From Isoetes taiwanensis (Eukaryota > Streptophyta > Lycopodiopsida > Isoetales > Isoetaceae), in contig JAJEKV010000049.1 in assembly GCA_021234155.1 (NCBI GenBank), forward strand, positions 8,404,036-8,468,035: 64,000 bases of DNA, written 5' to 3'. The notes beneath the pieces are model-generated. The model had not been told where the DNA came from and did not search any database. It saw nothing but the letters and a program-made list of their open reading frames with translations. The translations under genes and the position numbers were made by a program. Within the stretch, counting starts at the first letter, position 1; each line of letters starts with the position of its first letter. Shown piece after piece: positions 7,091 through 37,595 of the stretch.

Positions 7091-7115
7091 AAGTCGTATT
7101 TAATTAAAGTGGGAC
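7091..7115 (+). repeat. Left terminal inverted repeat
   Basis: It begins AAGTCGTATTTAATTAAAGT and continues GGGAC. The reverse complement of 37571-37595 is identical except for C instead of T at position 7. Similarity stops abruptly after 25 bp. Confidence 0.9.
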
Positions 7116-7986
7116 TCATTCCATTCCCATTTTTTTTCGGAACCCGGTTAATTTACATAAAAAGTAGCACCCCGACCCGAAAACTATCCTTAATTCGAAT
7201 TTTTGAATAAAACTCAATCCGAAGCTTTGTCGCAGCTTTTCCCCGGTTTCATGAAGTCGAGAACAAAAACAATGCAACTGAAACAAAGGAAATTCATTAA
7301 AGTTTGAAACCAAAGATCTAGTTGAAAAAGAATTTTTATTAATAAATTGAACAGATACAATGTATTTTACATCGGACGCAGAGACCATGGTGGTCTTGCT
7401 GTCACTACAGTTACATCATCTTGGTAGGTGGTCCACCTTAGGGGATTAACTAGCTACGCTTCTTCACGCCGACCGTAAGCCTTTGGGGCAACCTTGAAGA
7501 GTGTGGAATGCCTCACGGGAGGTGCCTCTCGAGCTACCGGCCGACCTGTCCACCCACTTCTCCACTCGCCTCCCCGCACCTTTCATCGAATATGCTCCTT
7601 CCCCAACCTCCGCGGATGTTATGCAATGCTTGCAAGATGCTTTGAGCTTCCCGGACTTTCGCTTGTTCTTCGCCTGTTCTTTATCCCTGTGGTGTAGCGA
7701 GCAACCTCTCAATTCGCGAGCAACCTTGTCCCAAAGGCCGGGCAAGAGTGTAAGCGACCGGGATCCTGCCCGAATCGGTATTTCTTCCGCTTTGAGCCGG
7801 ATCTCAGGTCGCTGGAGCGGTCTCTCTGATGCCTGAGCGGGATCTGTGCTGGTGTCGGATCTGTGCCTAAACCACCTGGAGCAAGGAGAGTATGATTAAC
7901 AATTACGGTGCCATTAGTCAAAACGAAGAAAAGAATGTTGAAATCAAATTACAACGGAGAACATTCATTCCATACAACTGCATCCA
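7116..7986. other. Left subterminal region of the giant element, no clear gene
   Basis: There is an AT-rich start and then a GC-richer block from ~7440. Open frames on both strands at 7464-7836 overlap one another and show no family motif. I see nothing convincing as a gene. Confidence 0.4.
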
Positions 7987-8290
7987 ATGACGTGGGAAGT
8001 AGTGTCTTTCTCGACTCGCGAGTCGAGAAAGGCCCATAAAAGTCAAAGTACAACCATTCTCATTAGAATATGGTTGCATCCAATCACACACGGAAGCATA
8101 CAAATGCTTTCGTCAACGAGACAACCAGCATGCCTTTCTCGACTCGCGAGTCGAGAAAGGCCCAGGAAACCCAATGTACAAGCATTATCATAATAGATTG
8201 TGGTCGCATCCAAATACACAATCAAACATACAAATGGTTTCATCAACAGGACAAGCATGCCTTTCTCGACTCGTGAGTCGAGAAAGGCAT
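7987..8290. repeat. Three ~125-bp direct repeats, each with a 26-34 bp palindrome
   Basis: Palindromes sit at 8006-8031 (perfect), 8132-8161 (perfect, 30 bp) and 8257-8290 (34 bp with one central mismatch). Their common core is CTCGACTCGCGAGTCGAG flanked by TTT and AAA. Around each lies a repeated context containing TGGTTGCATCCAA and ACAAATG-like strings, so the repeat unit is ~121-131 bp. Related palindromes lie at 9312-9335 and at 31.9-33.2 kb. Position and symmetry suggest protein-binding sites such as those a transposase would use; this is inference. Confidence 0.85.
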
Positions 8291-8388
8291 CGAAAACTCA
8301 ATATACAAGTATATTCATTACAAAATGGTCAATACATGTTCACGTTTGTTTACAATATTCACACAATTTGACTATCTGAAAGCAGAGG

Positions 8389-9260
8389 TCACTCTTCTTG
8401 TTCACCAAAATATTTGTCGTCCATAGCTTTCATGATCGCCTTGCTCTCTGGATCGGGTTCCGTGAGGCTCGGATAGTTACTAATCACATCGGCGACAAGA
8501 ATGGCAAAGAGGGATTCCGCCAAGACAGGACACAGTCCGAAGGACAACCACCTATCCGTCTCATATTCTTCAGGTCGATATGGCTTAGCAATGATTGTAT
8601 TTTGCGCTGTTATGCGCGGAGTCGCTCTATGATGAGCGTGTTGTGTTTGCCATAGTCCCGAATTGCTCATAAAACCCGCCCGACCTTTTCACCATTATAG
8701 GCTTCCCTTTGTGATGGCTGGATTGAGGTCCGACACATGCTTCGACTTTTTCGTTTCCCCCAAACGAACTTGAACTTCAAAACCGAAATGCCGAGAACAC
8801 CAAGAACATTGACAATATTTTTCTTTGCCATACAAGACCATATGCCCACTTCAATCCCCTTCGAGGCACCATTCAACAATTTCCTTAGCTCTAGGCCCTG
8901 GATACACTATTTTATGCTCTGTTTTGGTTGGGATCTGCGAGGTGTTAATCTCGGGACGCCTTTTGTCGTGGTATACCGCAGCTAATACCCATTGACGCCA
9001 AATATTACAAGCTTGGTGGGACCACCGGATCCCGGTTGGAGTTTGGCTCTGACCATATTTCCGGTTCATCGGGATCCAAATGCGGGATCATTATCTTCTC
9101 AGGTCCTTTCTGGCTGTTAGCAGTGTCTTGCTCTGGATTGTCTTTGTGAAGTGCATTCTCCTCCTCGCGACGTGAACCGCTGGTATCCAATGACAATGAT
9201 CCGGAGTCGTTGACATGGAATTCCCTGAAATGATGACATCCGGCCGAAGGAACGAGTTTT
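8389..9260 (-). CDS. 3' part of the giant element's minus-strand gene: FCP1/NIF-like HAD domain
   Basis: Read on the minus strand, a Ser/Glu/Asp-rich linker (ending in EIWSEPNSNRDP) is followed by KLVIFGVNG at ~8990-9019. Next come IVYPGPRAKEIVEWCLE, EVGIWSCMAKKNI, KFKFVWGK, GKHNTLII and a C-terminus ending DDKYFGEQEE, stop at 8389. This order matches plant FCP1-homology (NIF, HAD-type) proteins, in which a DxNG motif, a phosphate-site WS and an LIDD motif occur in sequence. Here the first catalytic Asp is Gly (FGVNG), the pieces lie in different frames, and a stop follows FGVNGY. Either the gene is decayed or the base calls are wrong at CAG/CTG-like sites. The upstream exons lie at 26.7-30.1 kb beyond the CACTA insertion. 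Phosphatase activity is doubtful. Confidence 0.55.
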
Positions 9261-9335: not shown

Positions 9336-9498
9336 CACCGATAGAGCAAAGTAAACACAAGGCATCCAAAAGCAAAACACCACATGGTTTTTCCCATGGT
9401 TATGACTAGAAAACCATTCCATAAAACCAATGGGTTTTTGTGGGTTAATTTCATTAAAAACCATATGAGGCTAAACTACTTGGTTTTCTTGTAAGGTT

Positions 9499-10760
9499 CA
9501 CTAGGGTGGTATTATGGCATGGAAATTGCTAACGGCTCCTTCCTAGTGTTTGTCAAAGTGGTATTTTATGTTGGTAAATAGATGTGATATATTATAAGGT
9601 TTTAAAGGTAGGGTTTCTCAATGTGGTATAATATAGTGGTTGTGGATGTGGTTTGATGTCGCGGCTCTATTCATGTGATTTTATGATGTGGTTAGTTATG
9701 GTGGTAAAATGTCGTGGCTAATTTTCATGGTAAATGCACACGGCTCGCGATGTGTTATATGCAGTAAATCACCATTATTTAATTAGTGGAAGTGTTTAGA
9801 TTATTGTATTAAAACACTATTATGTTTATCAAACTTAGATGTAATTGTTAGTTGTAGAAATGCATGGTTTTGTAGTACACTAGATTCATGGTTATCATTT
9901 ATAAACAAGTATTGCTATATAGTCTAAAGCATGTCAAACTACTAGACTAAACTATTAAAGATTGTGGATGGTTTCTTATGTATTGTAGTACTTATTAAGG
10001 TTGGTAATCCACTAATGGCTTTTAGTCTAAAGCGTTCCAACTATTGCATGGAAAACATGCATATCTTTACACTCAAGATGTACTCGTTAAGGCTGATAAA
10101 CCACTAATGTTTCTATTCTTAAGCTTCTTAAGTTTTTGCATATAAAGACGTGCAATCTTTCCACTAAATATCTAATAGTTTTTTCAATCATACACGCAGT
10201 GGTAAAGATGACAAATCATCAGAAACACTTTTAGTTTATGAATGAAAACCATAGCAATCTTATTAATTATCCATGTACATCTTTGTACAATGACTGCATA
10301 GTTTCTTAACATGTATGTATAGTGTTTATGATTAAATGCATTGCGTGCTTAACATATACCCCTAGTGCTTAAGACTATTTAACCATAAATGCTTTTCACA
10401 TCCAAGAAGTTTATATACCCCTAGTGCTTAAGACTATTTAACCATAAAAGCTTTTCACGTCAAAGCAGTTCATATACCCCTAGTGCTTAAGCCTATTTAA
10501 CCATAAATGCTTTTCACGTCCAAGCAATAAACAACTACTTAAAGTGTAGTGGTCTTTTGCATGGTTTCGTAACATTGTAGGGTTCTTAAACTGCTACTAC
10601 TTTTGGAGATGAAAGCATTTGTATTTAAATGTTTTTTCCTTGCGTGGTATTTACATGAACCACTACTACTTTTTGTTGAAAGTGGTATTTACTTTTTTTT
10701 CCTTGTGGTTTACTAGAGATATACATAAGTGCTTTGCCAAGTAAAGATAGATTGATTCAA
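9499..10760 (+). repeat. Left subterminal repeat region of the CACTA element
   Basis: Short motifs of the type GTGGTAT, GTGGTTT, ATGGTTT and their variants occur dozens of times, nearly all in this orientation. They are presumably transposase/TNPA-type binding sites. The only coding-like frames are short and unsupported. Confidence 0.65.
10354..10530 (+). repeat. Three tandem 59-bp repeats
   Basis: Units start at 10354, 10413 and 10472 with ATATACCCCTAGTGCTTAAG and continue through TTTAACCATAAA and GCTTTTCAC. They lie inside the CACTA subterminal region. Confidence 0.85.
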
Positions 10761-10932
10761 AAACTAATGCATACAAAGGCTTCAACAATAAATATGATCT
10801 ATATAATAAGAATGAACACAGTTACAAGTTTTAGAAAACCCTAAAACCTTAAAGCCGATAATGGTCTGTCTTAAGTTTTATCCAAAACACAATGCTGCGA
10901 TCAATCTATAAAGTGACAACATCTCAACGCAA

Positions 10933-13900
10933 TCAATCTTCAAACCTGACAGTAGAATGATTGATGTTGCCCGTTCTCCAACCCTCTTTGGAGATGCTCA
11001 TGACACTGCACTTCACGCATGCCATTGCAAAGAGCTTATATAAATCTGGACCCCTCACCTTAGATTTGAGTAGATTGGAAAATGCTTTCTTGTGTTTCTT
11101 ACTCAGTTCCTTGCTCAGTTTAAGAAGATCTACAACATTAACATCATCAATCTTCTCCTTCTGAAGTGCAATCATGCATATTGTCTTGTGTTTAAGGGGT
11201 GGCATGTTTTCCAATCTGCTCATCTGCTTTGAGTGTATAGTCTGCAACATGCAAATCACATGAAATATGGTCAAAACATATTTGCAAAAGATGTCATCTG
11301 AAATGGCACTCATTATTTTATTGAATGCTATCATGAGAAATACTAATTCAAAGAATAACATACCTGCAAATCATCGCCACTGCTGTCATCATTTTCTGAT
11401 TTTTCTTCCGTAACATAATTGTTTTCCTTTATTGTGTTCAAATCAGCTAGAATTTTCCTCGCTTCCATTTGAGGAACAGAACGAAGCCTTGATTTTGGCA
11501 ATCGCACGAACCATTGTTTCATGTCATTGCCAAGATCTCTAAGAATTTCAAGTTCACTTGTAGGGAATGGCATCGGCAGCTCCTCAGAACCCTCCTCAAG
11601 ATAATGAATATTCAAGGAAACATTACCTTCACCAATCGGTATTCCATGTACTAAACCAGCAGGATCTATCTCATGAATTAGCCCCAAACCAAATCGTTCA
11701 TCGCCATAAACCAAAGACACATACTCATTTTTATTATATTCTTGAAAAGCCTACAAATGAGAACTTGTTAGTAGGTGATGCTGATCAGCAACTTAAAGAG
11801 AGCATGGCAGATCAAGTCTTCAATTCACATATTTTATGTTCTGCTGTAATGTGTTCATATGCAAAGTCTGGGAAGTATTTCTATTCCACTCAAGTCTGAA
11901 CATCCATGGTAAGAGAGGCATCCATAGGTTTTGGAAGAAGCTTAAGATCCGGGGAAGGTCTCCAAGCAAAAGATCTTTTCATGGAGCTTGTACTTTAGAT
12001 ACTGGTCACGCAGTCTTGATATTTGGGGGAATGGTAGAAAGAGATAAGTTAGGGCTGGAATTTGATGCTGGTCTCTATTTGCTGCAGTTATGGTGTCACA
12101 TGTTTTGTGATTTTCCAGTTACTGAAGAAGGGGCTTTGGTGAAACTTCAGGAGCTCAATTTAGGGCACTGCCAAATTGAAACGCTGCCTGCATCCCTTGG
12201 AAGTGTTGGATGCTTATCTGCTTTGAAGAAATTGATCCTGATTGATCCATGCAAAAGGCAGGAAGTTTTCCAAGCCTGGAGCTGTTAGATGCATCAGCAT
12301 GTGCACTAGAAGGATTTCCAGATATAGAAGAGGGCGCCATGATCATGCTGAAGGTGTTGAAACTCAGCAGTTCCAAAATAAAGCAGCTTCCAAGGTGCTT
12401 TGGAGGGGCAAGATGCTTCACGTCCCTGCAGCACTTACATTTATCAGGGTGTCCACTCTCGCACCTCCCAGAGATTGAGAAGGGTGCTCTCCCCAGATTG
12501 TGTGAAATCCATGTGGAGAAGTATGAACATAATTCGGAGGAATGAAGCACAATGATAATAAGGCATTTCACAACGGGCTGACCTCTATTCATACCCAACC
12601 ATGCCGTTTTAAACAGAAAGATTCGCTAACAATCCTTCAAAGTACCTTTCTTATTTATCTCCCTCTCATTTAACCAGTTGCACATGCAGAAGCATTTCCC
12701 ACTAAGCCAATACATACAACCACACCCATGATGAGCATTTTAACAAGCCAGGGCTCTAATGGTAACATCGATAAATGACGACCTTACAAACAATACTACG
12801 GCTAAATATTTGCTGGAGAATATTTGCTGGAGAAGTGTGAACATACTTCTAAGAAAGGAAGCACAGTGATAATAAAGCATTTCCCAAACCTTTATGAGCA
12901 AATCGTACATAAACCAAGATATGTTCTATGCAAGGAGGTCTGAAAATCTGAACTTACACATCTGCTAAAAGGCAAGCAGTGTCTTTTGATCCTGGATGAC
13001 GTTTGGGACAAGTCAGTCATAGAATGGCTGAATTATGACACCACAATTCTAATCACCACACGCAATCCTGAGATTTTAGGACTGGGGACACAAGACGTTG
13101 AAATGGGTATGCTTTCAGAAGAGCATAGCTAGAATGTGTTCCTTCATCATGCATTTCAATCCAGTCCTATTCAGTTTCAAGATGATAATGCTATTCATAA
13201 AGATGTCAAGAGTATTGCTGCAAGGATGGCCAAGAAATGCAAGGGCCTTCCCCTCGCTTTAAAGTTGGCAGGAAGTGCTATGACTAGAAAATCTGAGAAA
13301 TCGCAATGGGAACAGGCATTGAGTGGTCTGCAAGATGCCCAATTGGTTCAAGAAGAAGCCCTGTATGGCCACCTAAAAATCAGTTACAACGAACTGGGAA
13401 GTTTGGAGAAGCATATTGGTCAAGGTAGAAAGCTCCAAGAATGCTTCCTGTACTTGGGTGCATTTCGCAAATATGAGAAAATAGACATCTTTGATTTGGC
13501 AAAATGATGGGCAGGGGAGAGGCTGCTCAAAGCAGGAAATGATCTGATGATTGAAACATACTTTGTTCTTGGTATTCTCATAGCTTCTTCTTTGTTTGAT
13601 GTGGTGGGAGAGTATGCATGTCGGGTTCATGATGTGCTCAGGGACATGACATATCATATTTTGAGGAAAGAACGCGTGAGGCAAGAGGTATTTCATGTTG
13701 AAAAAATTCAGGATGACATCAGTTTGCAAGTGGCAAAGAGAATCTAAATAGGCAAGTCCATTCCTGTACTTCATGTTAATTCTCCAATTGTGGCACCTAA
13801 TCTAAACATTCTGCTGCTTGAACGCTGTGGTGAAATCCATCAGAAATTTCTCTTGAACTTCCCATCCCTCCAAATGTTGAGCTTAATATCTACAGGAATA

Positions 13901-15504
13901 AAAGCTCTTCCAGATAGTCTAGGTCTGTTAAAGTCACTTGTTATCTTGGATATTGTAGAATGCAACTCACTAGCTTCTATTCCAGAATCCTTGGCAGAAT
14001 TGATTGTTGGCAACAGTGTTCTTATATATTAGCTTTGGTATCTATTATCTAAGTATTGTTGCCACAGCTAGGACATCCACTGTAAAGATGCGTGAACACA
14101 GCTTCTTATTTGAGAGAATCTTGCAAAAGTTTCAGATAGCATGGAAATAAGTGGGAAAAAATACATACTGAACTCACGCTACCATCACTTCGTCGCTTTT
14201 TTGCAGCTACCATCGTGTCAGCATTTCCAAAGTCTTCAAAATCATCATCGTCGTTGTCCAAAGATTCAAATCGCTTGTCCATTGCTGAAATTGTCAAGGA
14301 CTCTGGCCATTCTAATTCATCCTAATTACGACAAAGAAACAGCCAATGAAAATCCAAGATAAATGTCAAATATAAAGAAGAATTGAGTTAAGAGTGTGCA
14401 TACATCTATGGCAAGTTCCTCAATCCTCTTTTGTGCAGCAGAATTCCCGTTTTCAAATGGCAAGTAGGCATCCTTTTCACTATCAATAATGCTTTTGATT
14501 TTAATCTGAACCAAAGCATAATTTTCTCCATCCACCTGATTTTGCACTTTTGCAGTTCCTACTACAACCTCCTTACTTGCAAACAATGATGGGCGCTTCA
14601 AACCAGCAAAAAAGAGATCATTGAAGAACTTCAAGTGACTAATTTTCAAAGTTCTTGATGAAGCTAGCAATATAACAGAATTATCCTTCTCGTAATTCCT
14701 TTCGTATTCAAACTTTTTGGCACACATACTCAATCGTTTTTTCTGCCCACCAATCATCAAGTTGATTGTTTCACGAATAAACTTTTCTGGAACAGAATAA
14801 GAAATAGTAGGCCAGCATATGGGCTTCAAAATTCCACTTCCCATGAGATGTTGAATGAGTTTATCTCTTCGCGCAATCCACTTTTTATTTTCCTCATATG
14901 GCCTAAACTGTGGCAATGTAAAAACAGGAAATGTAGACAGCACAGCATTGTGAATTTCCCTATGATTGTCAACCATTTGCAGCCACTATGAACGATGTCC
15001 TATTTTTTTTAAAGCCAACCTGCCATTCTTTACATCTGGCCCCCTGCTCAATACTGTAAAAACATGGGCCGCTTTTGGGACTTTATCAAAACGTACTTGA
15101 CCATAACTTTCAAGACGACCACTATCACGTCTCATATCCCTCTGTTCATCACTTCTTATCTCCCGCTCAACAACTACATCAAGATTCAGAGATGATTGAT
15201 GGCTGGACAAGCCACCTTTGGAGACAGTAAGAGCTGATCCATTTGCAACAGCAGCACGAGAAGCATTCTCCTTGATTTCGTCACGCAAGCCCACAATCCC
15301 AACAGCCAACCCTTTTATAAAACCTAATTCAAGCCAATCATTGAGCTGGAAATTCAGAAAACTCATCCCATATACCTGCTTCTCAACAACTAACGCCTCC
15401 CCACTCTCCACGGGAGTAGAAGAGAAGCGACTAAAAATATAAGTAGCCACATCTTTGGGCTGCCACAATGATACTTCAGAGAGCGTTGGTAAACTTTCAG
15501 CCAT
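10933..15504 (-). CDS. Multi-exon CACTA-borne accessory protein, SAM-like N-terminus
   Basis: The reading starts at the ATG ending at 15504 (MAESLPTLSEV). The first ~80 residues (SLWQPKDVATYIFSRF, LNDWLELGFIKGLAVGIVGL) look like a SAM-type helical domain. The frame runs on through an in-frame TAG at ~14990 (GHRS*WLQM) into a 200-residue block ending ELAID, then a GTATGCAC...AATTAG intron. Next is an Asp/Glu-rich exon (DELEWPESL ... DDDDFEDFG) ending TCA|GTATGT, then a ~2.4-kb intron. The exon at ~11.35-11.75 kb (VYGDERFGLGLIHEI ... LPMPFPTSE) resembles DUF8039-type modules of plant transposon proteins. The last exon (TIHSKQMSRLENM ... NHSTVRFED) begins after TTGCAG at ~11.25 kb and ends at 10933. 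The role is unknown; a TNPA-like DNA-binding partner of the transposase is possible. The TAG (perhaps from CAG) may inactivate this copy. Confidence 0.55.
11915..12288 (+). pseudogene. Chimeric kelch-LRR frame (captured host fragments)
   Basis: One 150-codon frame (11836-12288) joins two unrelated modules. Residues ~30-77 read GRSPSKRSFHGAC ... AVLIFGG ... AGLYLLQL, the spacing of a kelch repeat. After LWCHMF the frame continues into leucine-rich repeats (KLQELNLGHCQIETLPASLG, then LSALKKLILIDPC), as in plant NLR C-termini. The LRR reading shifts frame at ~12245 and goes on in 12249-12545. The piece lies inside an intron of the opposite-strand accessory gene. It looks like gene capture by the CACTA element. 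No start codon context supports expression as a protein. Confidence 0.6.
12249..12545 (+). pseudogene. LRR C-terminus of an NLR gene, frame-shifted
   Basis: SFPSLELLDASACALEGFP, MLKVLKLSSSKIKQLP, SLQHLHLSGCPLSHLP and LPRLCEIHVEKYEHN form regular ~23-residue plant NLR-type leucine-rich repeats, ending in TGA at 12543-12545. The preceding LRR block is in another frame, so one indel near 12245 separates them. Confidence 0.65.
12514..12886 (+). repeat. Partial duplication of the NLR 3' end
   Basis: 12514-12573 (end of the LRR frame and its stop) is repeated in diverged form at 12829-12886: GGAGAAGT(A/G)TGAACATA and GAAGCACA(A/G)TGATAATAA are shared. This suggests that two related NLR copies, or a duplicated tail, were joined here. 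Confidence 0.7.
12960..14032 (+). pseudogene. NB-ARC/LRR resistance-gene pseudogene, 5' truncated
   Basis: The reading starts at a kinase-2 motif (LLKGKQCLLILDDVWDK). It continues with RNBS-B (TTILITTRNPEI), GLPLALKLAGSAM, an RNBS-D-like CFLYLGAF and an MHD-type VHDVLRDM, and then leucine-rich repeats to ~14032. In-frame stops interrupt it at ~13130 (EEHS*NVF, where Trp is usual), ~13505 (LAK*WAGE) and ~13745 (AKRI*IGK). The P-loop and N-terminal domain are missing, and a stop lies just upstream of LLKGK. NLR proteins sense pathogen effectors and trigger immunity; this copy cannot do so. It lies on the strand opposite the accessory gene and within that gene's large intron. Confidence 0.85.
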
Positions 15505-16189
15505 GGAGATAGTTGAGACCTGGAATAATGTAAAGCTAAATCAATATAAAATGGCTTGTTGATTAAATATCTAGAGCTGGCTGGTGCAGTGTTAATGCAG
15601 TCATAAAAAGCCAAGAGTTTATGCAGGTCCGATTAATTCATCAAGTAATAATTCAGCAAGTAGTCAATTCTGTCAAAGTACATAACATGAATTATAGAAT
15701 CCGTTATTGAGTGCATGGAAACTCAAAAACAAGAAAGTAGATACAGCATCACACAATAGTTTGCCTATAATCAGTTATTTACAAAGCTTTTGCTTTAGAA
15801 AACTATCACTCCAAATGCATAATTTAAGATATAAATTCATTGTCATAACCATTTCCAAAATGCATATTCATGATAGGGGTAGACCTATCTGCCAATTTAA
15901 TCTTCCTATACATAATACATAATCCTTTACATTCACATACCTGAATCAGAAGCAGTAAAGGAATTTCACAAGAATTTTGCAGCTCCTCAGCTCAATCGGC
16001 TTCTTTGGTATTAAACACAATATTTTCTACTGCAGAATCAGACAATGCAAATAGGTACCTGAGCATGAGATCCTTCTTGAGATTTTTTCGGGGCCAGCAA
16101 TCAGCTCGCCGGCCCCCCCTTCCCTGCCAGCAGCCATCATTGATGCATCCCGGCTGAAACGTCCTCTGCCATCACCACCGGATTAGGTC
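15505..16189. other. Noncoding stretch upstream of the accessory gene
   Basis: This is AT-rich DNA between the accessory gene start and a SINE-like sequence. It presumably holds that gene's promoter and 5' leader. I see no defined motif and no other gene. Confidence 0.4.
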
Positions 16190-16430
16190 TCGGGTTTTTT
16201 CTCTAACGTCGTGGTAAGACGTTAAACTGCCATACCCAAGGTCACGGGTTCAACGCCTCGTTGTGAAAGTGGCCATGCAATGTAAAGTTGGTGGGGGAAG
16301 GACCCACTTCAGCAATGTAAAGTGGTGGGGGCAGGACCCATCTGGGTGTGTTGTAAAGTGTCACATGTCCGATAGGACGCTGCCTTGTGGCGTGACGTTA
16401 AAATCTCTTCTTCTTCTTCTTCTTCTTTTA
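16190..16430 (+). repeat. tRNA-derived SINE-like sequence
   Basis: An A-box-like GTGGTAAGACG at ~16211 is followed ~35 bp later by a B-box GGTTCAACGCC at ~16247, the spacing of an internal Pol III promoter. About 170 bp downstream the sequence ends in AAAATCTC followed by a (TTC)n run at ~16406-16427. No flanking target duplication was delimited. A chance B-box match is possible. Confidence 0.5.
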
Positions 16431-16464
16431 GGGGCATTTACTATGCTGGCCTGCCACCTGGGTT

Positions 16465-16865
16465 TTTTTAGGTTGCTGAGTTGGAATTTTTCGCCACACA
16501 AATATTGTTTAGTCGTCGTGCACCGTGGATCTCAAAAGGTGGCTGAGCTTGGGTTCATTGTAGTGCAGATTGATGAGATGGGTACCTCAGATCGGTCCAA
16601 GGCGTTCCACAATATATGCGCAAAAAATATAGGTGATGCTAGACTCCCAGATCGCATTCTTTGGATGAAAGTTGCAGCATTAGAACATCCATATATGGAC
16701 CTTGATAGGATAGGAATTTATGGTATTTCTGCAGGAGGGCAAAGTGCTCTTGGTGCATTGCTAATGTATCCTGATTTTTACAAGGTGGTTGTTTCAGCAT
16801 GTGGTTGCCATGACAATCGGATGGATAAAATGTGGTGGAATGAGTTATGCATCTGCTCGGAGTAG
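16465..16865 (+). pseudogene. Fragment of an S9 prolyl-oligopeptidase/DPP-IV-like serine peptidase
   Basis: [54 protein letters not shown] and [15 protein letters not shown] follow the catalytic-domain order of S9 peptidases related to bacterial DPP-IV-like proteins. The nucleophile Ser lies in GISAGG. The N-terminal propeller and the downstream Asp and His of the triad are absent. After WWNE the frame is lost; a neighbouring frame offers a continuation, so a frameshift at ~16845 is likely. It reads in the same direction as the NLR and kelch fragments and is probably also captured DNA. The homologous family is mainly bacterial, so transfer into this plant lineage is possible but unproven. Confidence 0.65.
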
Positions 16866-17867
16866 AACCACGCAATGATTGTAAGCACATTTAAAGCTAT
16901 GGAAATATGGGACCAAAGGAATTCTGTAAAGGAGAAGAACTGAATGGCTATTGGATTAATGAAGTTTTGTGTAAGATACAACATTTGAACAATATTAAGG
17001 CATCAGAAATTTTTGCTCTATGGAAATAACTAGTTTGCCAACTCAAGTTAAAGAGCATAAAGGAGCATCACAAATAACTCGACTTCAAGGGCGTAAAGGA
17101 GCATCACAAGTTTGCAGTAAACATGATGACTACTTGGTCAAACATAATTGATGCTTTTGTGAAGGTGAAGGATGATTAAGTGGATCGTTTGTCTCTGTAT
17201 CCTTTGTGCATCAACAGATCCATGTGATATTGATAGGCATAAATCTGTATGTGCGGTATGGTGGCATGTCTTACACACCCATGAAAAACTAGAAACTGGA
17301 GTCAAATAGTGCAACTCAAATGGAGAATAAGCAAAAAACAAATGGGTGCATAGAACTATAAATGAGTGCATCGAATGAGCAAAAAACAAATGGGTGCTCT
17401 AAGCATAGGTGTCGATTCGAACTTAGGAATCATGTCATAATGAGGGGCAATCTGAATAATTGGGGTGTTCTTTCCAAGCCTTAGGGTATGCAGTTTTAAA
17501 CAAATTTGATTCAAGCTATGTACAACGTGCAGATGCTTTGCTAGGATTTCTTGCATCTCTTTTCAAGTTGTATAATGAATAGCATATGCATTTGAAAGTT
17601 CAGTTAGGCCTTCTGTTTGGAGAGTATGCAGTGTTGAGGTACTTGTGAGAAAAGCATTTGAATGAATCTAAATGAAGACATGTTAAGGCTTCTATACTAA
17701 TATGCTAGAAATCTATATGTGTTCAACTTTGAGGGTAGAGGCAACTGTGTTAAGCTTTGAGAAATCTACTCATGTGTTAAGCTTTGTGGATATACTTGTT
17801 TTGCTTGGTAATAATGATGGCATATATAGTTGCGTTACTACTTTTGCTTTAAAATCTGTGGTGCTGC
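16866..17867. other. Noncoding stretch, no gene recognised
   Basis: Short frames only. A pair of related 40-bp strings (GCGTAAAGGAGCATCACAA, AGCATAAAGGAGCATCACAA) occurs at ~17050-17110. Nothing else is distinctive. Confidence 0.4.
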
Positions 17868-19980
17868 CCTAGGGTAACTATGGCCTTCTAGAAGCAACCG
17901 CATAGTCGAAATTTCGTGAAGTGCCTTTCTGGCATGGCCAGTGGCACCTTGTCCAGTTTGCGCAAGGGGCAACTTTGGAATAGGTGTCTCGGGAGGGTTT
18001 TTTTTTCTCTCTCTCTTGGGTTCTCTCTTCAGACCCTTGTGGGAATCCTGCACTTTGTAGGCAGGGAAGGCTACCGAAACCTAAACCCTACATTTTTAGT
18101 AGGGTTTTGCTTTTGGGGCACCAAACCTCTCCATCTGCTAATCCCACTGTCCAAATGGTAGCTCGTGTTCCTTGAATCATCTTCAAAAAAGAAAAAATGG
18201 ACATCCACTGCACAGGCGTACCAACCCCCAAATTACCCCCTTTCCGACGTAGGGCCACGAGGTGGATATATGGTGTGTTCCTCTAATTCGGCAGCTATAC
18301 CGAGCTTGGAATGCAGTTTTGGCTTCATGCACGAGTCCAAGGCAACAATTTACTCTAGGGACCAGCTGTTGTGACCAACATAGCCAAACTCAACTTGCTA
18401 TATGCAACTAGTCGAAGCTTTAAACGATGCACTCCTTGCACAGAGTGCGTCGCCGGATCTTAATTAAAGGTAGCATGCACAAGGAAGTAGGGGCAGTTGA
18501 TCGGGGCAAGGCTCTTCATGCATGTGCCCTAGGGTAACTATGGCCTTCTAGAAGCAACCGCATAGTCGAAATTTCGTGAAGTGCCTTTCTGGCATGGCCA
18601 GTGGCACCTTGTCCAGTTTGTCGTGAAGCATCGCAAGGGGCAACTTTGGAAATAGGTGCCTCGGGAGGGTTTTTTTTTTCTTTCTCTTGGGTTCTCTCTT
18701 CAGACAGGCAAGTGCTCGACCACTGTGTAGGCAGGGAAGGCTACCGAAACCTAAACCCTACATTTTTAGTAGGGTTTTGGTTTTGGGGCACCAAAACCTC
18801 TCCATCTGCTAATCCCACCGTCCAAATGGTAGCTCGTGTTCCCTGAATCATCTCCAAAAAGAAAAAATGGACATCCACTGCACAGGCGTACCAACCCCCA
18901 AATTACCCCTTTAGGCGTAGGGCCACGAGGTGGATATATGGCGTGTTCCTCCAATTCGGTAGCTATACCGAGCTTGGAATGCAGTTTTGGCTTCATGCAC
19001 GAGTCCAAGGCAACCAATTTACTCTAGGGACCAGCTGTTGTGACCAACATAGCCAAACTCAACTTGCTATATGCAACTAGTCGAAGCTTTAAACCGATGC
19101 ACTCCTTTGCTTAGAAGTAGTCGTCGCCTCTTAATTAAAGGTAGCATGCACAAGGAAGTAGGGGCAGTTGATCGGGGCAAGGCTCTTCATGCATGTGCCC
19201 TAGGGTAACTATGGCCTTCTAGAAGCAACCGCATAGTCGAAATTTCGTGAAGTGCCTTTCTGGCATGGCCAGTGGCACCTTGTCCAGTTTGTCGTGAAGC
19301 ATCGCAAGGGGCAACTTTGGAAATAGGTGCCTCGGGAGGGTTTTTTTTTCTCTTGGGTTCTCTCTTCAGACCCTTGTGTAAACCCTGAGGCAAGTGCTCG
19401 ACCACTGTGTAGGCAGGGAAGGCTACCGAAACCTAAACCCTACATTTTTAGTAGGGTTTTGGTTTTGGGGCACCAAAACCTCTCCATCTGCTAATCCCAC
19501 CATCCAAATGGTAGCTCGTGTTCCCTGAATCATCTCCAAAAAGAAAAAATGGACATCCACTGCACAGGCGTACCAATCCCCAAATTACCCCCTTTCCGAC
19601 GTAGGGCCACGAGGTGGATATATGGCGTGTTCCTCCAATTCGGCAGCTATACCGAGCTTGGAATGCAGTTTTGGCTTCATGCACGAGTCCAAGGCAACCA
19701 ATTTACTCTAGCACAGTTTCTGCATTTTATATGATTAGCACAGTTTGTCGTGGGGCTGATTGTTTGTTTTCCCTCGAAAACCCTTCAAGGGGTTTTTTAA
19801 TCCACGAGTCCCATAGACCGATTGGTCTCCGTGGACGATAAAAGTAACTTCCTTCCTTCCTTCCTTCTAGGGACCAGCTGTTGTGACCAACATAGCCAAA
19901 CTCAACTTGTGGAAACCCTTGCAGGCAAGCGCTCGACCACTCTGTAGGCAGGGAAGGCAACCGAAACCTAAACCCTACAG
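17868..19980 (+). repeat. ~665-bp tandem repeat array, three copies
   Basis: Copies start at ~17868, 18527 and 19196 (GCCCTAGGGTAACTATGGCC). Each contains GGCATGGCCAGTGGCACCTT, a T-run with TCTCTTGGGTTCTC, AACCTAAACCCTACATTTTT and GGACCAGCTGTTGTGACCAA. The third copy is split at 19711-19868 by a ~158-bp insert ending in a (TTCC)n run, then resumes to ~19980 in rearranged form. Open frames within are copies of each other and show no protein family signature. AAACCCTA occurs once per unit, not as a telomeric tract. Confidence 0.9.
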
Positions 19981-24188: not shown

Positions 24189-24235
24189 TTCACATACTCA
24201 AAAAAGCATGTGGGCGACACATGTGCTGCACAGGT

Positions 24236-26671: not shown

Positions 26672-26714
26672 GTTATTTATAATGGTTAAATTTTTGGGCG
26701 CCTTGTGAAACTCA

Positions 26715-29700
26715 CCTCAATCTCAGGTTTTCAAGAATGTGTTCGGCAGCATTCTGGTCCAAACCTTTGACATTCTCGTCTCCGTCAGCTTTGTCTCCCT
26801 CGTCCTCGTCGTCTTTACTGCTTCCATTTGTCTTCCTCCCCTTGAAATGCTCATGAAGCAGATCCAGGTATGACTGAATGGTTTCAACCATGTCCTTATT
26901 TCCAACCACGGATATAGGTTTCATTCCAAACAGCATAGCCCCCTGAGAGAACAGGCCATTCATGTACCACTCGCATATAATTTGATCTTCCTCGACCAAG
27001 CTGGTTATGAAGTACTTGATAACTCTTGGCCGGATAGGAATTCTATGTATAGGACCTGTCGCACCATCTTTGCTGACCTTGTCCATCGATGGAACATCCT
27101 CCATAAATCTGCCCCCCTTCCAGGGTTCCATCTGCTCTTGAGAGATCATGAACTTTTGTCGAGATAATGATGCTCGCTAGACCACGGTCGACCGCCGATC
27201 TTGAAATCAAAACCAAAACTATGTTGGCAAAGCTTGGTGCCTTCGGCAAGCCAAGTCTGCACTCATGATCAAGTTCATATATGGAGTGCATGATCTTGTT
27301 GGTGAAGTTAATATCGGTACCCCATTGGGAGACAAAGCGGTTGTCCGATTGCCCTAATGCAAAAGACAAGGAAAAAGTATCCAGGTCGGTCATGTCCGCA
27401 TTAACGCCTTGTACAAGGGGATTCACTTTGTAGTGCCATATAATGTGCCCGAGTGACTTGTAGGGGGTTTTTGACCCATTTCCATAATGATAATGTAAGA
27501 GGTGGGGGTTTTTGCCACTACTTGGGGTAAACTTTGTACGGAAGGGGTCGAATTTGCCTTTCAAGAAATCGTATACGGGGGTGTTTTTGATCACCCTATG
27601 CACGCACATGGCATACCCCCCTTACTATAAATGAACCCCCCGGGGTCTTGTACCACTGCTCTATGTCAGCTTTGTCATAAAAAAGGGTGGGGTCTTCGAT
27701 CATATTGATGGCAAATAGTGCCACGGGTCCAGTGCCGTTCCTGCACCACCAAATCCCTTGTGTCCCAAAGTTACCGTAAAATGGGGGGAGCTATCGTCAC
27801 CTTAAATGGGACCACCCCGAATCCAAGCTTCCTCTTGAATTGCCATAGCACGTTCAGGGAAAGGAAGGGTTTTGACGTTACGCTTCAGCTTGGTGTTGAT
27901 GTAGGGTTGACATAGACGGTTCAATTCCTTCATGTCTTCCTCATCAAGGGCAGCCTTTTCCTTGTAATAATCAAAATCATGGTATTCATTAGATGCAACA
28001 TTGCAGAACTCCGTGATGCCTTCTTCTAACGCACGCTGTCTGAGAAGGGTCCAAAAAATGGTTCTTGGCGCACGAACCTGCGCCTGCGGCTAGGGCGGCA
28101 GGGGAGGAAGGGAACCGCCCTATCCTCCCAACCCGCACTTGCTCGCTCTCTAGCTCTTTCCAGTCGAGACTCGATGCTAGCAGAAATTACGGCCCGATGC
28201 GAGAACTTGTTTTACGGAAATTCAAGAACCCTCGAACATCAAAGCGGTTCTTTCTAGATCTCTTGCTGGTAAGCCACTAACGTGGCATTTTTTGCTCTTT
28301 AGCTTCAAGAGAAGCTCTATGTTTTTGCTCGGAAGTTTGGAAGGGCAGGCAAATCTCTAGTAACAGGTATAGGGCAGATTCTTTATTGCTGGAGATGCTA
28401 GTTTCTACCTTTCTTTCCTCGCCAAGAGACACATTGAAGCGGGCCTTGAGATGCCCATAAGATGGAGCGAGAAATTGGGCAAAAGCACTAGTAAGTGATG
28501 AAGTTTCAGATTTTTGAATTAAATATTTTACCCGTGTTCTCTATCGGTTGGCTTCTTTCCTTCGTCTCCGCTCTTTCTTTCTAGCAGAAAGGTCCTGATG
28601 ATGTTTGGGATGGTCTAGAATCATGTTTCTTGGACAGTGGATTCTTGGGGATTGATCTTAAGATTTTGAGATTTGAATGGAAAGATTATAGGCAGCAGAT
28701 TATATGACAGCTTTGCAGATAAAATGATTAATTCAAGCACTCGGTTCTTTGGTACTGCTATGCCAAGAACCGCATAACCAAAACAAGTACTGATGCTTGG
28801 CTGGTTTATGCTCAAATACTGATATGTTTGAGTGAGTGCTTGCTCAGGTACTGATGCTTGAGCTTCATTCTATTTTACTCCTTTCATACATATACTATGT
28901 CAGATATTCCCATTTTATTTCCCAATATCTCAGGAAGATCTGCCTGAATTTTCTAGCTGAGTACCATCATTCGGGAGCCTACAGGGCTTGTTCATGTATC
29001 ATCATACATCTTCTGGTTACCAGGCAGGATGACTATTTGATCCTTTCAAGTGCATCAACTAGAGCAATTTTTGTAAAATCTTGCTCTTAGAGCATCTAAT
29101 AAGTTTCTGCAAGAACAGGATGAAGATGTTGAGATTACTCCTGTAGTAATTCTGTTCTTCCTTTGCGTCCTGCATTTTAGAACTCCTGGTCTTCCTTAGT
29201 AGGATTGTTCCATCCAAGATTTTGCCTTGTAGGTCAAGCGTTTCTTTGTCCGTCAGGCCTTGTATCCTCTTCATGAACTGCTTGTCAAACAACTTGGGGT
29301 CCGGCCTGCTTGGAAATTCTCCATTGCTGTCCTTCAGCTTGCCTCTTGTCCATTGAGCCCATATCTCAGTCCATTTCTCCCAGACCGCCTCAGTGCTAAG
29401 AATGAGGTCATATTGGTTATTTACCTTACGTAGCTTCGCTTTTCATTTGCTATTGTGTTATGGCGATGGCTAATCTTTGGCCAGTTCGGTTCTTTGGCGT
29501 CTCCGTAAAAGAACTACGCACTCTCGCTTGGCATATCTATCCTTGATCCTTTTCGGCACCTCCTTCTCCGCGTCACGCAATACTTGCGCCGCCCTCATTT
29601 GAATCTTGACCGCCTACAACCCGTAACCGGATGTCTTTTCCTTCAGATCTTCCTCGGACTTCCAATTTGAACAACTCACCGGTCGATCTGCTAAAAAGGT

Positions 29701-30065
29701 ATGACATCCGCAGAGCATTGATCTGCGCGAGGATGATGTCGCACCATCGGGTTGAGAATCTCCATGTGTCTTTGGATTAAATTCCCCGGTTGAACAAGAC
29801 GCGGCATCTCCCCGTGCAAACCTTCACCCGTCTAATATCCAAAGAAGAAATTGTGTGATATTCCCAACGGATAATATTGAGCCAGCCGCTCCATTTTCTG
29901 TGCCCCTCTCTGTGAAATCCTGATCTGATCATCTGGATCCATTATTGGGGAGTCGACCATATCTTCGTCTCCTTCGTCATCTGATTCCTCCCGTGTGGTG
30001 TCATCTTCCCCATCTTTGTTTTTTGGTGGACTTTTTTGTGTATGAACCACAACTTGATTCCCCAC
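26715..30065 (-). CDS. 5' exons of the giant element's minus-strand gene
   Basis: The reading starts at the ATG ending at 30065 (MGNQVVVHTQKSPP, then a very acidic stretch EESDDEGDEDMVD). Coding-like blocks follow at ~29500-29640 (AAQVLRDAEKEVPKRIK), ~29115-29440 (LILSTEAVWEKWTEIWAQWT, KQFMKRIQGLTDKETLDLQG), ~27850-28050 (EFCNVASNEYHDFDYY, KRNVKTLPFPERAMA), 27150-27609 (NPHLLHYHYGNGSKTP, VNPLVQGVNADMTDLD) and 26715-27050 (SLVEEDQIICEWYMNGL, ending in an Asp/Glu/Lys-rich tail). The last block ends TTGAG|GTGAGT, a good splice donor. The CACTA begins 44 bp further on, so it sits in an intron, and the 3' exons are at 8.4-9.3 kb. Several joins lack clear splice sites and frames change, so the model is approximate. 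Apart from the FCP1-like C-terminus I do not recognise the protein. Confidence 0.5.
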
Positions 30066-31640
30066 TGCAGAGTGTTGTAGAGTCTTCAGCTAACAGTAGA
30101 AGTGAAGCTCCCCGTATTGAACAGTTTTCCCCGACCACGAAATCTCCATTCCAAGCTCCACCCGATGTTAGGGTTCCCGCCTCCTTCATCCCTTCCAGAT
30201 CCTTCCACCCAAGGTTCGACAATTTAAAGGCGCTTTTTTTTTTTTTTTTTCCTTCGCCTTGCTCATGGAAGAGTGAGAATAATTTGAAACCGCTAATTTT
30301 TTGGTGTGATAGAACTTACTCTTCCCCGCAGTCCTCGACATGTAGTGTTAAATGCCTCGAATGCAAGCGGCCGAGGATCGGAGAGCACAACACCGATTTT
30401 CTTGTACTTGTCTCCGGAGCTCTTCTTGTCCCTTTGGTGGAGAAACAGATCTTTCTCCTTCCCACTTGTTGATACCTCGACATACCACCAAGAATCTGCT
30501 GGTGTGTCAAGAAGCTCGTCTCCACCTCCCTGATGGCCCGAAGAACGGAGTTCGGCCAGTGATCACTAGTGAGTCCGAGGTGAATGCTGCAAGAAGAAAG
30601 GATGGATCAGTTAAGGTATTCCGACAAAAGAAAAACCTCAGAGCTCACCTGGGGTGTTAGTCTTCTTCTTCTTGCTGCCGCTAGAACTAGCATCCCCTCC
30701 TGCGCCTCGCTTCTTGGACGGAGTCGTCATGTCTGTATGCCCTCTCATCCTCTTCTGACCCCTCTCAGAATTAAGCTTCCTCCGTAGCGTTGTGAGTTTA
30801 GGACCGCATGTAAAAAAAGATTGGGCGTGTTCTTTAGTTTGAATTTAAGGACATGCAATCATTTATGAAAAAAGCGGGCTAAAGTACAAAGACGGTTGGC
30901 TTTAGCCCCGCCCAAACACTATTTCAAATTTAATCACATCAAGGGACTTAGTGAGCGAGCGTAGTTTATCTTCATCAGCGGCATTGGCGACCTCGAAGTT
31001 CGCTGGGGAGCATCGAATCGTAGTTTACTTCGAATGGCGCCCACGCTGGTAAGTCGCTAACGGCGCTTTGCATATGTGTGTTTTTTTCCTGACCGCTGCG
31101 CCCTATTGCAAGCGTTGATTTGATCGATGAGCACGGAGCTAAGGTAGGAAGCGGAGAGGAGATGCCGAACACGGAACTCTACATCTAATTGGGCCCATGG
31201 AACGGGATGAACGCGAGAATCGCAGTGATACAAGTATTAGATCTTGAATACACTCTTGATGAGACCAAGCGGAAGAAGCAAAGACTCTAGGTGAGGCTGC
31301 GGGATCCGCGATACAAAGGGCCCAAGGAATTATTGCGTGAAGAGGTGAGTCCCGGAGATGCCTATGTTATTTCGCTTTGTAAAACATGCCGCCTGTTTAA
31401 ATAATGGAACCTGGCGATAAGCTCGACGGATTCATCGCTTTCCTTGTCCAGCATTTTTTCAGCTTCGAGATGATTTACTCTCCGGGTTGAGAGATGCTCG
31501 GCAAGGAAACAATGGATCGGGTTAATGAACAGATTCGCTTTTAGGTGTCTTTTTCATGGAGTGTTTTCTTGGAATGTTGTACATAGATCAGGCTAGGTCT
31601 AAGGCCCAGGAGATGCGGTTCAAATGCATCCTCTTGTAGT
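30066..31640. other. Region between the two divergent genes of the giant element
   Basis: The 5' sides of the minus-strand gene (start 30065) and the plus-strand gene (~34.47 kb) face each other across this region and the repeats that follow. It holds a T20-like run at ~30232-30250 and GC-rich frames on both strands that overlap and show no family signature. It is the likely shared regulatory region. Confidence 0.4.
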
Positions 31641-33239: not shown

Positions 33240-34465
33240 CCCGCAGTGGATTTGTTGTGAGTTAGAAACGGAGATTCTCGGAACCAATTCCTATTCTTAG
33301 TTCTTCTTTGGGAGAAAGACATTCCTAGTTATGTTCTCATTAATGCTCTGCAATATCTTACTTCCTAACACCAGTCTCTGATGATTTCTATCTCGGTTGC
33401 TTGCTACTACTCTAACCACTATTCTCACTTGTGCCTGTACAATGTATTCAATTCAACCACAATAACAAAAACAAAAAACAATACAAAGGGAAAACAGATA
33501 ACAGAGAGATTAGTGAGATTAATGAGAAAACAGAGAACAATGGAGAACAGTACAGAGAAATGAGATTAAAAAGGGTATGATATTACAAAAACATACCTGG
33601 AAGATTTGCTGGATGAGGAGGAGGCTTCTGTGTTCGCTTCCATGTGGGTATAGTCGATCGCAAAGCGTGAATAAGGATTTGTCGGGCTGTAAATTGTATC
33701 AGGGATTAATAAGAGCCTCTAACAACAGAATATAAGTAAAAATGCACTAAAGGACTTACAGAAAAGTAAAAAGCAGCACTAAAAAGGGCCTCACTTTCTT
33801 CTCAGGCGGTAACGCCCGCTCGAACACTCAATCTGCGCGAGAACTTCGGCGCTGGAAGCGTCCTGATCCGTCGACCAAGCTGCTGTCATAAGATGGCCTT
33901 GGAATCGCTCGGTTCGATCGATCGCCTGATCCGAAAAGCGGGCGCTTAAGGAAAACACAGAGCTCGAAGAGTAATCAGAGAAAACAGGGGAGGAAGAATG
34001 GTCGGGGGGGGAGAGGAAGAGGGTGCAGTTAATTCTAGCTGCACCCTCGAACCTCGTAAAAGTGCAATAATAAACTTCTGTCACGTGTGGGCCATGCCCT
34101 CCATGACGTGGCAGTCCGGATTGCTGACATGGCCACGCTTTCAGCCTCTGAAGAGGCGCCACGTGGCCATGGCAAGATATGAAAGGTTAAGTTATATATT
34201 TATATATGTTATCTTATGTATTTAATATGGTTTCAATGGTTGAATAGTTTCAATGGTTATATATGGTTACAATGTTTACATATGGTTTAGAATAAGTATG
34301 GTTGTATGCTTTAATATGGTTATATGATTTTAGTTAATATGGTTGTATGATTTAATATGGTTATATTTAATATGTTTGTATGGATTTATATGGTTCATAT
34401 GGTTATATTTGTGGTGTTTGGGGCTATATGGTTTTAATGTGAGCTTTTTCATTCAGGGAGCATGT
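33240..34465. other. Upstream region of the putative transposase
   Basis: No gene is recognised. 34185-34440 is a run of GGTTATAT, ATATGGTT and TTTAATATGGTT microsatellite-like repeats immediately before the transposase reading frame. Confidence 0.5.
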
Positions 34466-34469
34466 GAGA

Positions 34470-37389
34470 TGAGTAAAATGGAGCCAAGGAAGTCCAGCAG
34501 AGGCCATTGCCCTAGGCTCCAATGGAGGAAGATGGGTTGCCTTTTGTTGCACCCTTGCAACCAGACGGTATTTGCAGAGGGCATAATAACTGCAGTTGAT
34601 CCATTTGATAGTGTGAATGATGAGAGGCTGGGAGATGAACATCTTGGAGTTGGCATTGTGAAGCTTCTTATCGAAGTTGATACAATCATGTCCCGTGGAA
34701 GCTCTAGTGATTGCATTGTGTGCTCGTGGTCTTTGGAGTCCCAAGCTCGGGATTGAGATGGCCAATTAGATATATTACACACAAGAATGGTGATACTCTA
34801 GAATGCCCTACTGAACTACACACCCCAAGGCCCACCCAGGGCCATGTGGAAGATTTGGTGGTCGATGAGCATCCTTTGATCACAAGGAAGAGACGCTATG
34901 TCTTTCATAAAAGGCAGCCAAGGGTGCCCAAGAGGCCTAGAAGTGACAAATATTTAGAAAGGATGGAAAGTATGGCACCAACCAAAAGAAAACCCGGAGG
35001 CAATTAGGGGACAAGAGTGTTGCAACCTAGATTGCACGTCAAGCATTAAATGTGGATGACCTCGCGGATAAGGTCCCAATACATTGGACAGCTTCAAAAA
35101 GATAGGATTAATTTCATTTACTCCTTGTGTAGGAATTCCAGCTATGATGAAAACACAGGACGGCTACTATATCAATTGAGGGGCATGAAGGTATGTATGA
35201 GAGCATTGAGATGGATTCTTGGGGTGAGCAAGTCTTCATTTTACAGATACTGGGAGTAGGTTAGAAAAGGGCACAGTTTGTTCCAACATGGTAATGCACT
35301 CACTTTGAAACCTAGAGCAAATACTCTAAAGGCCATTGCAGTCTTCGAGAGCTTTGTGAGATACATGTCTCAATCTATGCCCCACAAGTCGAAGGTGAAC
35401 GAGCACGGTGTGCGAGTGGTGCAAAGAGTGCTGCCACAACACTATATCCAAAAGGAGTGCCTTAAGGAGGTCAACTCCATCCTGGAAACTACTAGAGGTA
35501 GGCCTCTTTCTCAATCACATTTCAGCAAGTTATGGAGCACTCACTTCTCAGACGTGAGTGTCCTACAACACATGCCATTCTCAAAGTGCAACACTTGCAT
35601 TCAACTCAAGGATACACTTGCATCAACTGCAATAGAGAAAGAAAGAATGGCAATTAGGGAGCAATTTGCAGATCACCAAAGGGACCAAATATCATGTAGA
35701 CAAATGTATTGGCGATTGGAGGGAGAACATTTTCCGAGATGCAGCCAGGACAAATTTTTGTGCATAATTCATGATAAGATGGACCAACACAAGACTTTCT
35801 TGCCAAAGCTAGATCCTTTACCCAAAGCGTTGTCAAAACGCCGATTCGATGAAAGTAAGTCCAAAAGGTGTATTAACACATGGTCATGGAACCGAACATA
35901 TGGTCATTTTGTGCTTGATCTATGGAGAGATGATCCATCCAAACTTCCATGTGAGCTCTATTTTCAAGTGCCTGAGAACACTAGAGAAAGGATCGATAGA
36001 AGGGAGGAGGTATTCCCCTTCAGCACCCATTTTTGAGGCTTTGATGGATGATCAACCGCTTTGTTACCAAAGGCAGATAAAAAAGCTCACATCCAAGGTG
36101 TCTAGTGAATCAAGGAGGACTTGGGATGATTTCCCCTTACTTGAGAAATCACCGCCGAGGAGCTATGTGTTCCCGGGCTTGGACAACCTGTTGGAAAGAA
36201 AACAAGAATAGATGGATGTTTGGGGCAATGTCATACTTGGACGCTAAAGTGGGAGTATTCAAAGTTGTGAAAGTGGGATTCATGATGGTTGGGCATACGC
36301 ATGATGATATAGATGGATTCTTTGGAACTTTCTCCACCAAGCTCAAGAGAGAAAACGTGACCACTCTCCCTGAACTAATGGATGTGTTTGAGAGCTGCAT
36401 TGACCCCAACCCAATGGCTTTCTTGATGGATGAGGTTGCAGATTGGAAATCATTTGTAGAAGGATACTTGCTAGATGGTAAGGACCGGTTGACAGACACA
36501 CAAAAGCCACTTCGGTTCAAGTTTTGGGTTAGGGATGGAATACCAATCATGCAATATAAGTGGAGACCAGGTGACAAGTTGTGGATGCCCTGCACAAGGT
36601 ATCGAAGTTGTGGCAAAGGGGTGCTGCTTTGGTGAAGTTCTCATTCCTAAAGGGCAGCCAAAACCACTACCTCCCTTCAAGACAGGTCAAAGACTCTAGC
36701 CAATTGGTGAAGGGCATCAAGGATTACATAACGCACACTGGGATGATGTTCGAAATGGAAAGCACACCTCCACTCTTAAGAAAAATCAAATGGACTCCCT
36801 AATCAAGTACTGGGAGAAAGTTGTGACATGCTTAGAAACTGAATGACCATGTGGGAGGGAGCTAAGAGACGGGTTCTTGCCAGAGTCAAGATGGGAGGGT
36901 TCTCAAGGTGCAAGCACGTCTAAGAATGCTCACTTGGGTCCCAACAAGGGTTCCAAGTGGTTTGTGGGAAGTAAGGCCTCAAAGCCGAAGTGGTTTGATC
37001 TTCCTGAGTGGGATCCCTTTGAGGACATCAAGGAAGGATACTTTGTGCTAGTAAGGCCTGATGATGAGGACTGTCCAATATGGTTAGGGGTGGCACTCTC
37101 TGATGTAACCACCACTATGCCTGATGGAGAGGAGTTGCGTCCTGGATTCCAAATTCAATATTGGGAGCCCATTGGGAGACACAAGAAGGGCAACTTGAAG
37201 GAGCAATACACTGACTGCTGGGAGAAGAAGTGGAGGGCAATTATCTTGAGACCCTCAAAGGAGGGAATTGGTGGAGTGTGTGGTATGGTCATATCCAAGT
37301 TCTCACATTGCAAAAGACAACACACACAAGATCCCAAGAAGGGAGATGGACAAGGCCATGAGCAACCTCCATGCTATATCATTGTATGA
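34470..37389 (+). pseudogene. DUF7869-like putative transposase of the giant element
   Basis: Blocks in order: MSKMEPRKSSRGHCPRLQW; a basic segment KRRYVFHKRQPRVPKRPR; VCMRALRWILGVSKSSFYRY (helix-turn-helix-like); KCNTCIQLKD; FLCIIHDKMDQHKTFLP; VFPGLDN then CWKENKNRWMF in the next frame; VGFMMVGHTHDDIDGFFGTFS; and a C-terminal module GYFVLVRPDDEDCPIWLGVA ending at 37389. The DKMDQ, DN(C)WKENKN and GHTHDDID motifs recur in eukaryotic DUF7869-type proteins and plausibly supply acidic residues of an RNase H-like fold. Breaks: frame changes at ~34750, ~35080, ~36000, 36188 and ~36590, and TAG at ~35258 (YWE*VRKG). At 36188 a single extra C before TGTTGG splits DN from CWKENKN. The gene ends 181 bp before the right terminal repeat, which supports its belonging to the element. 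Confidence 0.65.
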
Positions 37390-37570
37390 GGGTACATAAT
37401 ATTGAGAAGTTTTAAAACTTTCTCAACTAGTGGTTTGTAAAATTTATGAGGAAAACAAGTAACCCATTTCTATGTGTGTCATGTGTAATTCTATTCAAGC
37501 AATCAATTCAGAAATTTCTTTTACGGTGTGTGAGTCCCATTTTCAGTCCGAGTCCCAAAATTCAAGATTT

Positions 37571-37595
37571 GTCCCACTTTAATTAAATGCGACTT
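37571..37595 (-). repeat. Right terminal inverted repeat
   Basis: Its reverse complement begins AAGTCGCATTTAATTAAAGT and matches the left end over 25 bp with one mismatch. Further GGGACT/AGTCCC strings lie just inside at ~37533 and 37550. Confidence 0.9.

Follow-up and report, generated by a model that had tools for sequence, protein, structure and literature searches.

What is the 30,505-bp insertion that disrupts the first of the 3.1-kb tandem copies in a Isoetes taiwanensis contig, and how much of it belongs to a single transposon? The window analysed here is a stretch of 64,000 nucleotides (assembly GCA_021234155.1, contig JAJEKV010000049.1, positions 8,404,036 to 8,468,035), within which the array has three complete copies, A to C (Table 1). 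We consider it highly probable that the outer element is a cut-and-paste transposon of about 13 kb, Sola-1-like, with a broken transposase and with a CACTA-like insert in its accessory gene. The insertion is the sum of this element (13,150 bp, with ends beginning AAGTCG), a nested element of 17,352 bp, and the 3-bp duplication of the latter. An earlier note on this DNA had described 25-bp inverted termini with one mismatch, an AGAT duplication and an empty site next door, all of which are borne out: copies B and C both read CATAACAGAT followed directly by ACGTCAGC, uninterrupted across the site and with a single AGAT. Subtraction of the insert and one AGAT leaves 3150 bp for copy A, against 3138 bp for B and 3148 bp for C, exactly the lengths given in that note. 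The copies are 96.6% (A-B), 97.5% (A-C) and 97.0% (B-C) identical. In the simplest reading the duplication of the array came first and the insertion later, so that copies B and C keep the empty site.

The genome searched was the assembly that holds the window (1,658,258,908 bases in 1110 contigs). The earlier note had proposed a search for further copies, taking paired ends flanked by 4-bp repeats as support for a transposon, and the absence of the termini elsewhere as evidence against one. The end pattern was found 3,249 times with at most one mismatch (1593 + 1656 on the two strands), while the control pattern read backward gave 0 + 0; the 25-bp ends are thus far beyond chance. Pairing by hand among the 100 end places listed gave 31 adjacent plus/minus pairs less than 60 kb apart. 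Twelve span 3.4-5.8 kb, fifteen 10.6-14.8 kb and four 23-56 kb; one counted in the middle class, C10, turned out to be no true pair. Direct repeats of 4 bp flank 33 of the 36 end pairs examined, the window included. These 36 comprise a first set of 24 that includes the window (22 with the repeat, against 9 of 550 deliberately mismatched pairs), 13 later pairs of which two overlap the first set (12 with the repeat), and the C907 copy, flanked by an AAAG duplication. The three failures are C109, whose ends are 155 kb apart, C10, both of whose ends are right-type, and C16. In 12 of the 13 later pairs a left-type end was paired with a right-type one. The AAGTCG family is therefore a large one, its ends 25 bp long and its target duplication 4 bp, and the many paired copies that had been sought do exist.

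Some family members deserve separate mention. Two pairs on C128 (C128a, 91575-106371, and C128b, 130592-141805) have identical flanks and different lengths; they were counted as one event and probably represent a segmental duplication carrying the element. A pair of 55.7 kb (C35:517290-572971) has correct polarity and an AAAA duplication. Three of the copies of about 4 kb (L007, L008 and L009) have little in common with the 12-kb elements beyond the end regions, which suggests a non-autonomous class.

The transposase gene lies near the right end and is frame-broken in the window, so that the element could move only with transposase supplied by another copy. This region is collinear with two frames of the C907 copy (an open frame of 830 amino acids, with a DUF7869 match at E 8.4e-44, followed by one of 155 amino acids) and with a 947-amino-acid protein, L024. 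When the window DUF7869 protein was compared with the contigs that have listed ends, six of seven matches fell 0.9-1.3 kb from such an end; for the seventh, on C112, the nearest listed end is 47 kb away. Transposase matches stand at the right-type end in 11 of the 13 later pairs, including the 55.7-kb pair; the C113 pair retains the last transposase segment only, and C27 and C10 have no transposase match. The genome search with PF25273 gave 9907 first-look candidates, and all of the 150 that were scored were above the cut-off. Aspartates are conserved in the motifs (H/I)D(G/K)MD, Q(L/M)DN and GHTHD(D/Q)ID of DUF7869 proteins, and from these motifs we infer a transposase with an RNase-H-like DDD core in which the aspartates may have catalytic roles. 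Relatives were found in none of 52 candidate stretches from viral contigs and in one of 142 from prokaryote genomes. The latter is L024 itself (595-3438), an open DUF7869 frame on a 4.3-kb contig of a cyanobacterial metagenome bin with 42-47% GC, which is either a prokaryotic relative or eukaryotic contamination.

A second DUF7869 family, here the X family, is delimited by the loci L012 and L013 as a 9.5-kb element; its ends are AACAACGT, and the target duplications of the two copies are GTAG and AACT. At E 1e-5 its DNA did not match C16, a copy of the window's family, and the two transposases are 26% similar as proteins (E 1.6e-36). The families are unrelated in DNA yet both make 4-bp duplications, so that DUF7869 accompanies duplications of this length in two families. 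Inside the mapped ends of the X family, opposite the transposase, is an N6/N4 DNA methyltransferase (PF01555, E 5.4e-15); its frame is present in both loci, in L013 with only the first half as a listed open frame.

Can these elements be assigned to a known superfamily? The earlier note could name none; a Sola-1-like assignment can now be proposed from duplications of 4 bp, a transposase of the DUF7869 type and an accessory gene on the opposite strand. An excerpted account gives Sola elements a DDD transposase, duplications of 4 bp, terminal inverted repeats (TIRs) of 11-1124 bp and a length that is mostly 2-9 kb but sometimes above 15 kb, and places them in moss (PMC10741241). Our 25-bp ends fall within that TIR range, and the 4-bp duplication recurs in the pairs counted above and in both X-family copies. 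It is rather improbable, yet the most serious of the alternatives, that the DUF7869 elements form a superfamily of their own, defined by 4-bp duplications, a large transposase and a methyltransferase or phosphatase accessory gene. Such a separate standing would agree with the absence of any mention of DUF7869 in the literature searched, with the different termini of the two families (AAGTCG and AACAACGT), and with the fact that the comparison was made by description; against it, the duplication length, the occurrence in a seed-free plant and the opposite-strand methyltransferase all fit Sola and Sola-1 as described in the published excerpts.

The outer element was previously taken for a 30.5-kb transposon. 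The transposon, its ends and its duplication stand; the length does not, since 17,352 bp are a separate CACTA-like insertion, and the apparent 30.5 kb comes from this second transposon, unrelated to the first, lying within it. C16, C22 and C35, three copies 12.0-12.3 kb long, align piecewise on either side of the block 9356-26707 and lack it; two smaller pieces of the window element, of about 0.25 and 1.1 kb, are additional relative to them. The nested right end, allowing two mismatches, has 139 + 127 matches genome-wide against a control of 0. With up to three mismatches, the right junction matches the genome once only, and the left junction has one exact and three 3-mismatch matches, the backward control also having one. 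That a single native giant transposon of 30.5 kb moves whole, with all the genes it encloses, is hence very unlikely: the outer ends and AGAT do bracket the entire length, and 4-bp duplications flank further long pairs (24.8, 23.5, 26.7 and 55.7 kb), but the members without the block, the block's own termini and AAA duplication, and the junction counts all argue against it. No second 30.5-kb unit was seen in the genome, within a search limited by masked stretches.

CACTA/EnSpm elements usually have termini starting with CAC, a 3-bp duplication, a TNP2 transposase and captured fragments of host genes. The nested element, whose duplication was read in this one copy, is alike in its CAC-starting termini, its 3-bp duplication, a weak TNP2 match and host gene fragments; it is unlike in its ends, which are of CACAA and not CACTA type, and in a TNP2 match below the curated cut-off. 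The NB-ARC and Peptidase_S9 fragments are consistent with captured host sequence. The letters would also allow its duplication to be read as the 4-bp AAAC, but the termini then no longer pair as inverted repeats. The outer element was likewise considered as CACTA/EnSpm and set aside, its ends being AAGTCG and its duplications 4 bp. Two repeats were seen inside the nested element: a 516-bp imperfect palindrome at 20325-20840 (an inverted self-match of 85.6%), and at 17865-19979 a tandem repeat of about 0.67 kb with copies 91-93% identical.

An assembly error or chance junction, with unrelated ends joined across a repeat, can be dismissed as extremely unlikely: the site does lie within a 3.1-kb tandem array, where assemblies can fail, and the published assembly, according to the excerpted report, combined Nanopore, Illumina and Bionano (PMC8566536), but left- and right-type ends occur in correct polarity with a 4-bp duplication, two copies have the matching empty site, and independent copies have the same layout.

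Table 1. Features of the window, with the contigs of related transposase matches
Feature	Position	Strand	Details
Whole insertion in tandem copy A	7091-37595	.	30,505 bp
Left 25-bp terminal inverted repeat	7091-7115	+	AAGTCGTATTTAATTAAAGTGGGAC
Right 25-bp terminal inverted repeat	37571-37595	-	reverse complement AAGTCGCATTTAATTAAAGTGGGAC; one mismatch to left repeat
Target-site duplication AGAT, left copy	7087-7090	+	
Target-site duplication AGAT, right copy	37596-37599	+	
Tandem copy A, left of insertion	4004-7090	+	
Tandem copy A, right of insertion	37600-37662	+	
Tandem copy B	37663-40800	+	empty site intact
Tandem copy C	40801-43948	+	empty site intact
Partial fourth tandem copy	43949-45222	+	98.7% identity to copy A
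Accessory gene, 3' part	8392-9032	-	NIF-phosphatase-like remains
Accessory gene, middle part	26715-27790	-	no known domain found
Accessory gene, 5' part	29476-30644	-	decayed; ParB-like motif region in C907 copy
Transposase gene (DUF7869)	34400-37386 (about)	+	frame-broken here
Open frame with DUF7869 match	36081-36632	+	PF25273, E 1.7e-28; GHTHDDID motif
Nested CACTA-like element	9356-26707	.	17,352 bp; termini CACAAGGC...GCCTTGTG
AAA duplication of nested element	9353-9355 / 26708-26710		
NB-ARC fragment in nested element	13133-13507	+	E 1.9e-10
Peptidase_S9 fragment in nested element	16218-16865	+	E 4e-23
Frame with weak Transposase_21 (TNP2) match	21580-22503	+	PF02992, E 7.9e-5; 22.4 bits against curated cut-off 28.6
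DUF7869 matches 0.9-1.3 kb from a listed end	C13, C124, C134, C201, C268, C279		

The nested element cuts the 3' part of the accessory gene off from its remainder. The better preserved C907 copy has this gene opposite the transposase, terminating in a NIF-phosphatase-like domain (PF03031, E 2.9e-10); the C16 gene matches at E 0.0037, below the cut-off, and within the window itself no frame of the 3' part matched Pfam. The 150 NIF copies scored, from 6795 candidates in the genome, are 72-100% identical. Among 150 NIF and 150 transposase places we found 35 neighbors within 30 kb, of which 34 have the same divergent layout (500 randomisations: mean 2.0, maximum 6). The middle part was tried as a degenerate methyltransferase, a reading that found no support (with hhalign it scored 13.7, while 100 column shuffles averaged 14.3 and reached at most 23.3), and against profiles of solved structures it gave one insignificant match (E 0.64). 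When the ParB-like motif regions of the accessory genes of both families were aligned with hhalign, the score was reached by 1 of 200 shuffles. An N-terminal domain common to the accessory genes of both families found no support, 114 of 200 shuffles reaching the score, while the C1018 element does have such a domain in common with the X family (E 6.7e-7).

We compared the best 150 of 1444 methyltransferase candidates with the best 150 of 9907 DUF7869 candidates, and found 24 neighboring pairs within 15 kb, 22 of them divergent with the methyltransferase upstream (1000 randomisations: mean 0.57, maximum 4). The ratio of nonsynonymous to synonymous substitution rates (dN/dS) is low for the methyltransferase (0.05-0.16 in 10 comparisons, from 5 of the 6 loci fetched). 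For transposases, taken from copies of the L012-L018 families rather than the window's, it is 0.04-0.31 in 14 of 15 comparisons, one giving no value and four others being saturated; for NIF it is 0.18-0.54 in six comparisons of four well-preserved copies with few changes.

How the locus arose can be put together as follows. The large DUF7869 transposase would recognise the 25-bp ends and insert them at a target site whose strands are cut 4 bp apart, which would give the 4-bp duplications. The element inserted into copy A of the already duplicated array, and the CACTA-like element, entering the accessory gene before or after that event, added 17.35 kb. The accessory protein may act on the DNA or chromatin of the transposon itself, by marking it or by countering silencing. 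We call the window element a broken Sola-1-like member whose accessory gene is a phosphatase variant. In wider terms, we raise as a tentative possibility, one we would not yet rely upon, that this vascular plant has a hugely expanded Sola-1-like lineage carrying a bacterial-type DNA methyltransferase under purifying selection and divergent from the transposase. One branch, with the window element among its members, would have a phosphatase-like domain in the accessory gene, in which no methyltransferase is seen. The accessory protein would then modify the DNA or chromatin of the transposon that encodes it, and in Isoetes these elements could bear N6-methyladenine (6mA) or N4-methylcytosine (4mC) as a mark. 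DUF7869, of so far unknown function, would gain a candidate role as transposase of DNA transposons with 4-bp duplications, and the results suggest that N4/N6 DNA methyltransferases carried by transposons, which have been published for algae, are also frequent in a lycophyte genome and kept there by selection. The DUF7869 link, the lycophyte scale and the phosphatase form were not found in the literature searched, which is no proof of absence.

Several points weigh against the Sola-1-like account of the outer element. The C16 pair has a 5-bp duplication, TGTAC. A structure prediction for the L024 protein was uninformative (predicted local distance difference test score, pLDDT, 38) and was not used. 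A methyltransferase domain was not found in the window's own family, and where upstream DNA was examined at four DUF7869 loci (two of the X family, C1018 and C1103), the latter two had no match to the X-family methyltransferase (E 1e-3, 14 kb each). The ParB resemblance is weak (PHROG ParB-like, E 0.036), with no ParB match by Pfam in the C907 or X-family accessory proteins. Finally, the likeness to Sola-1 was drawn from published descriptions rather than from transposase sequence. Outside the insertion, long open frames at 62095-62856 and 60057-60545 of the window have no Pfam match at E 0.01.

Two known systems are closest to the outer element. Sola1-1 of Ectocarpus is described in an excerpt as a giant of 21.5 kb with a ParB and methyltransferase gene opposite the transposase (PMC12477816), so that a methyltransferase in the accessory role has been described before. 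The Isoetes elements are alike in 4-bp duplications, which are described for Sola elements in general, and, as far as that excerpt goes, in large size and an accessory gene opposite the transposase, and sister families in this genome have an N6/N4 DNA methyltransferase in that gene; the window's family is unlike in that its accessory gene ends in a NIF-phosphatase-like domain, with no methyltransferase detected. Sola2 of amoebozoans, also known to us in excerpt, has 4-bp A+T-rich duplications, short TIRs, a large transposase and a Fanzor1 passenger (PMC3627910). On that account the two are alike in 4-bp duplications, short TIRs, a large transposase and passenger genes, and they differ in the passenger, Fanzor1 there and NIF-phosphatase-like here, and in the duplications, which in Isoetes are not confined to A and T.

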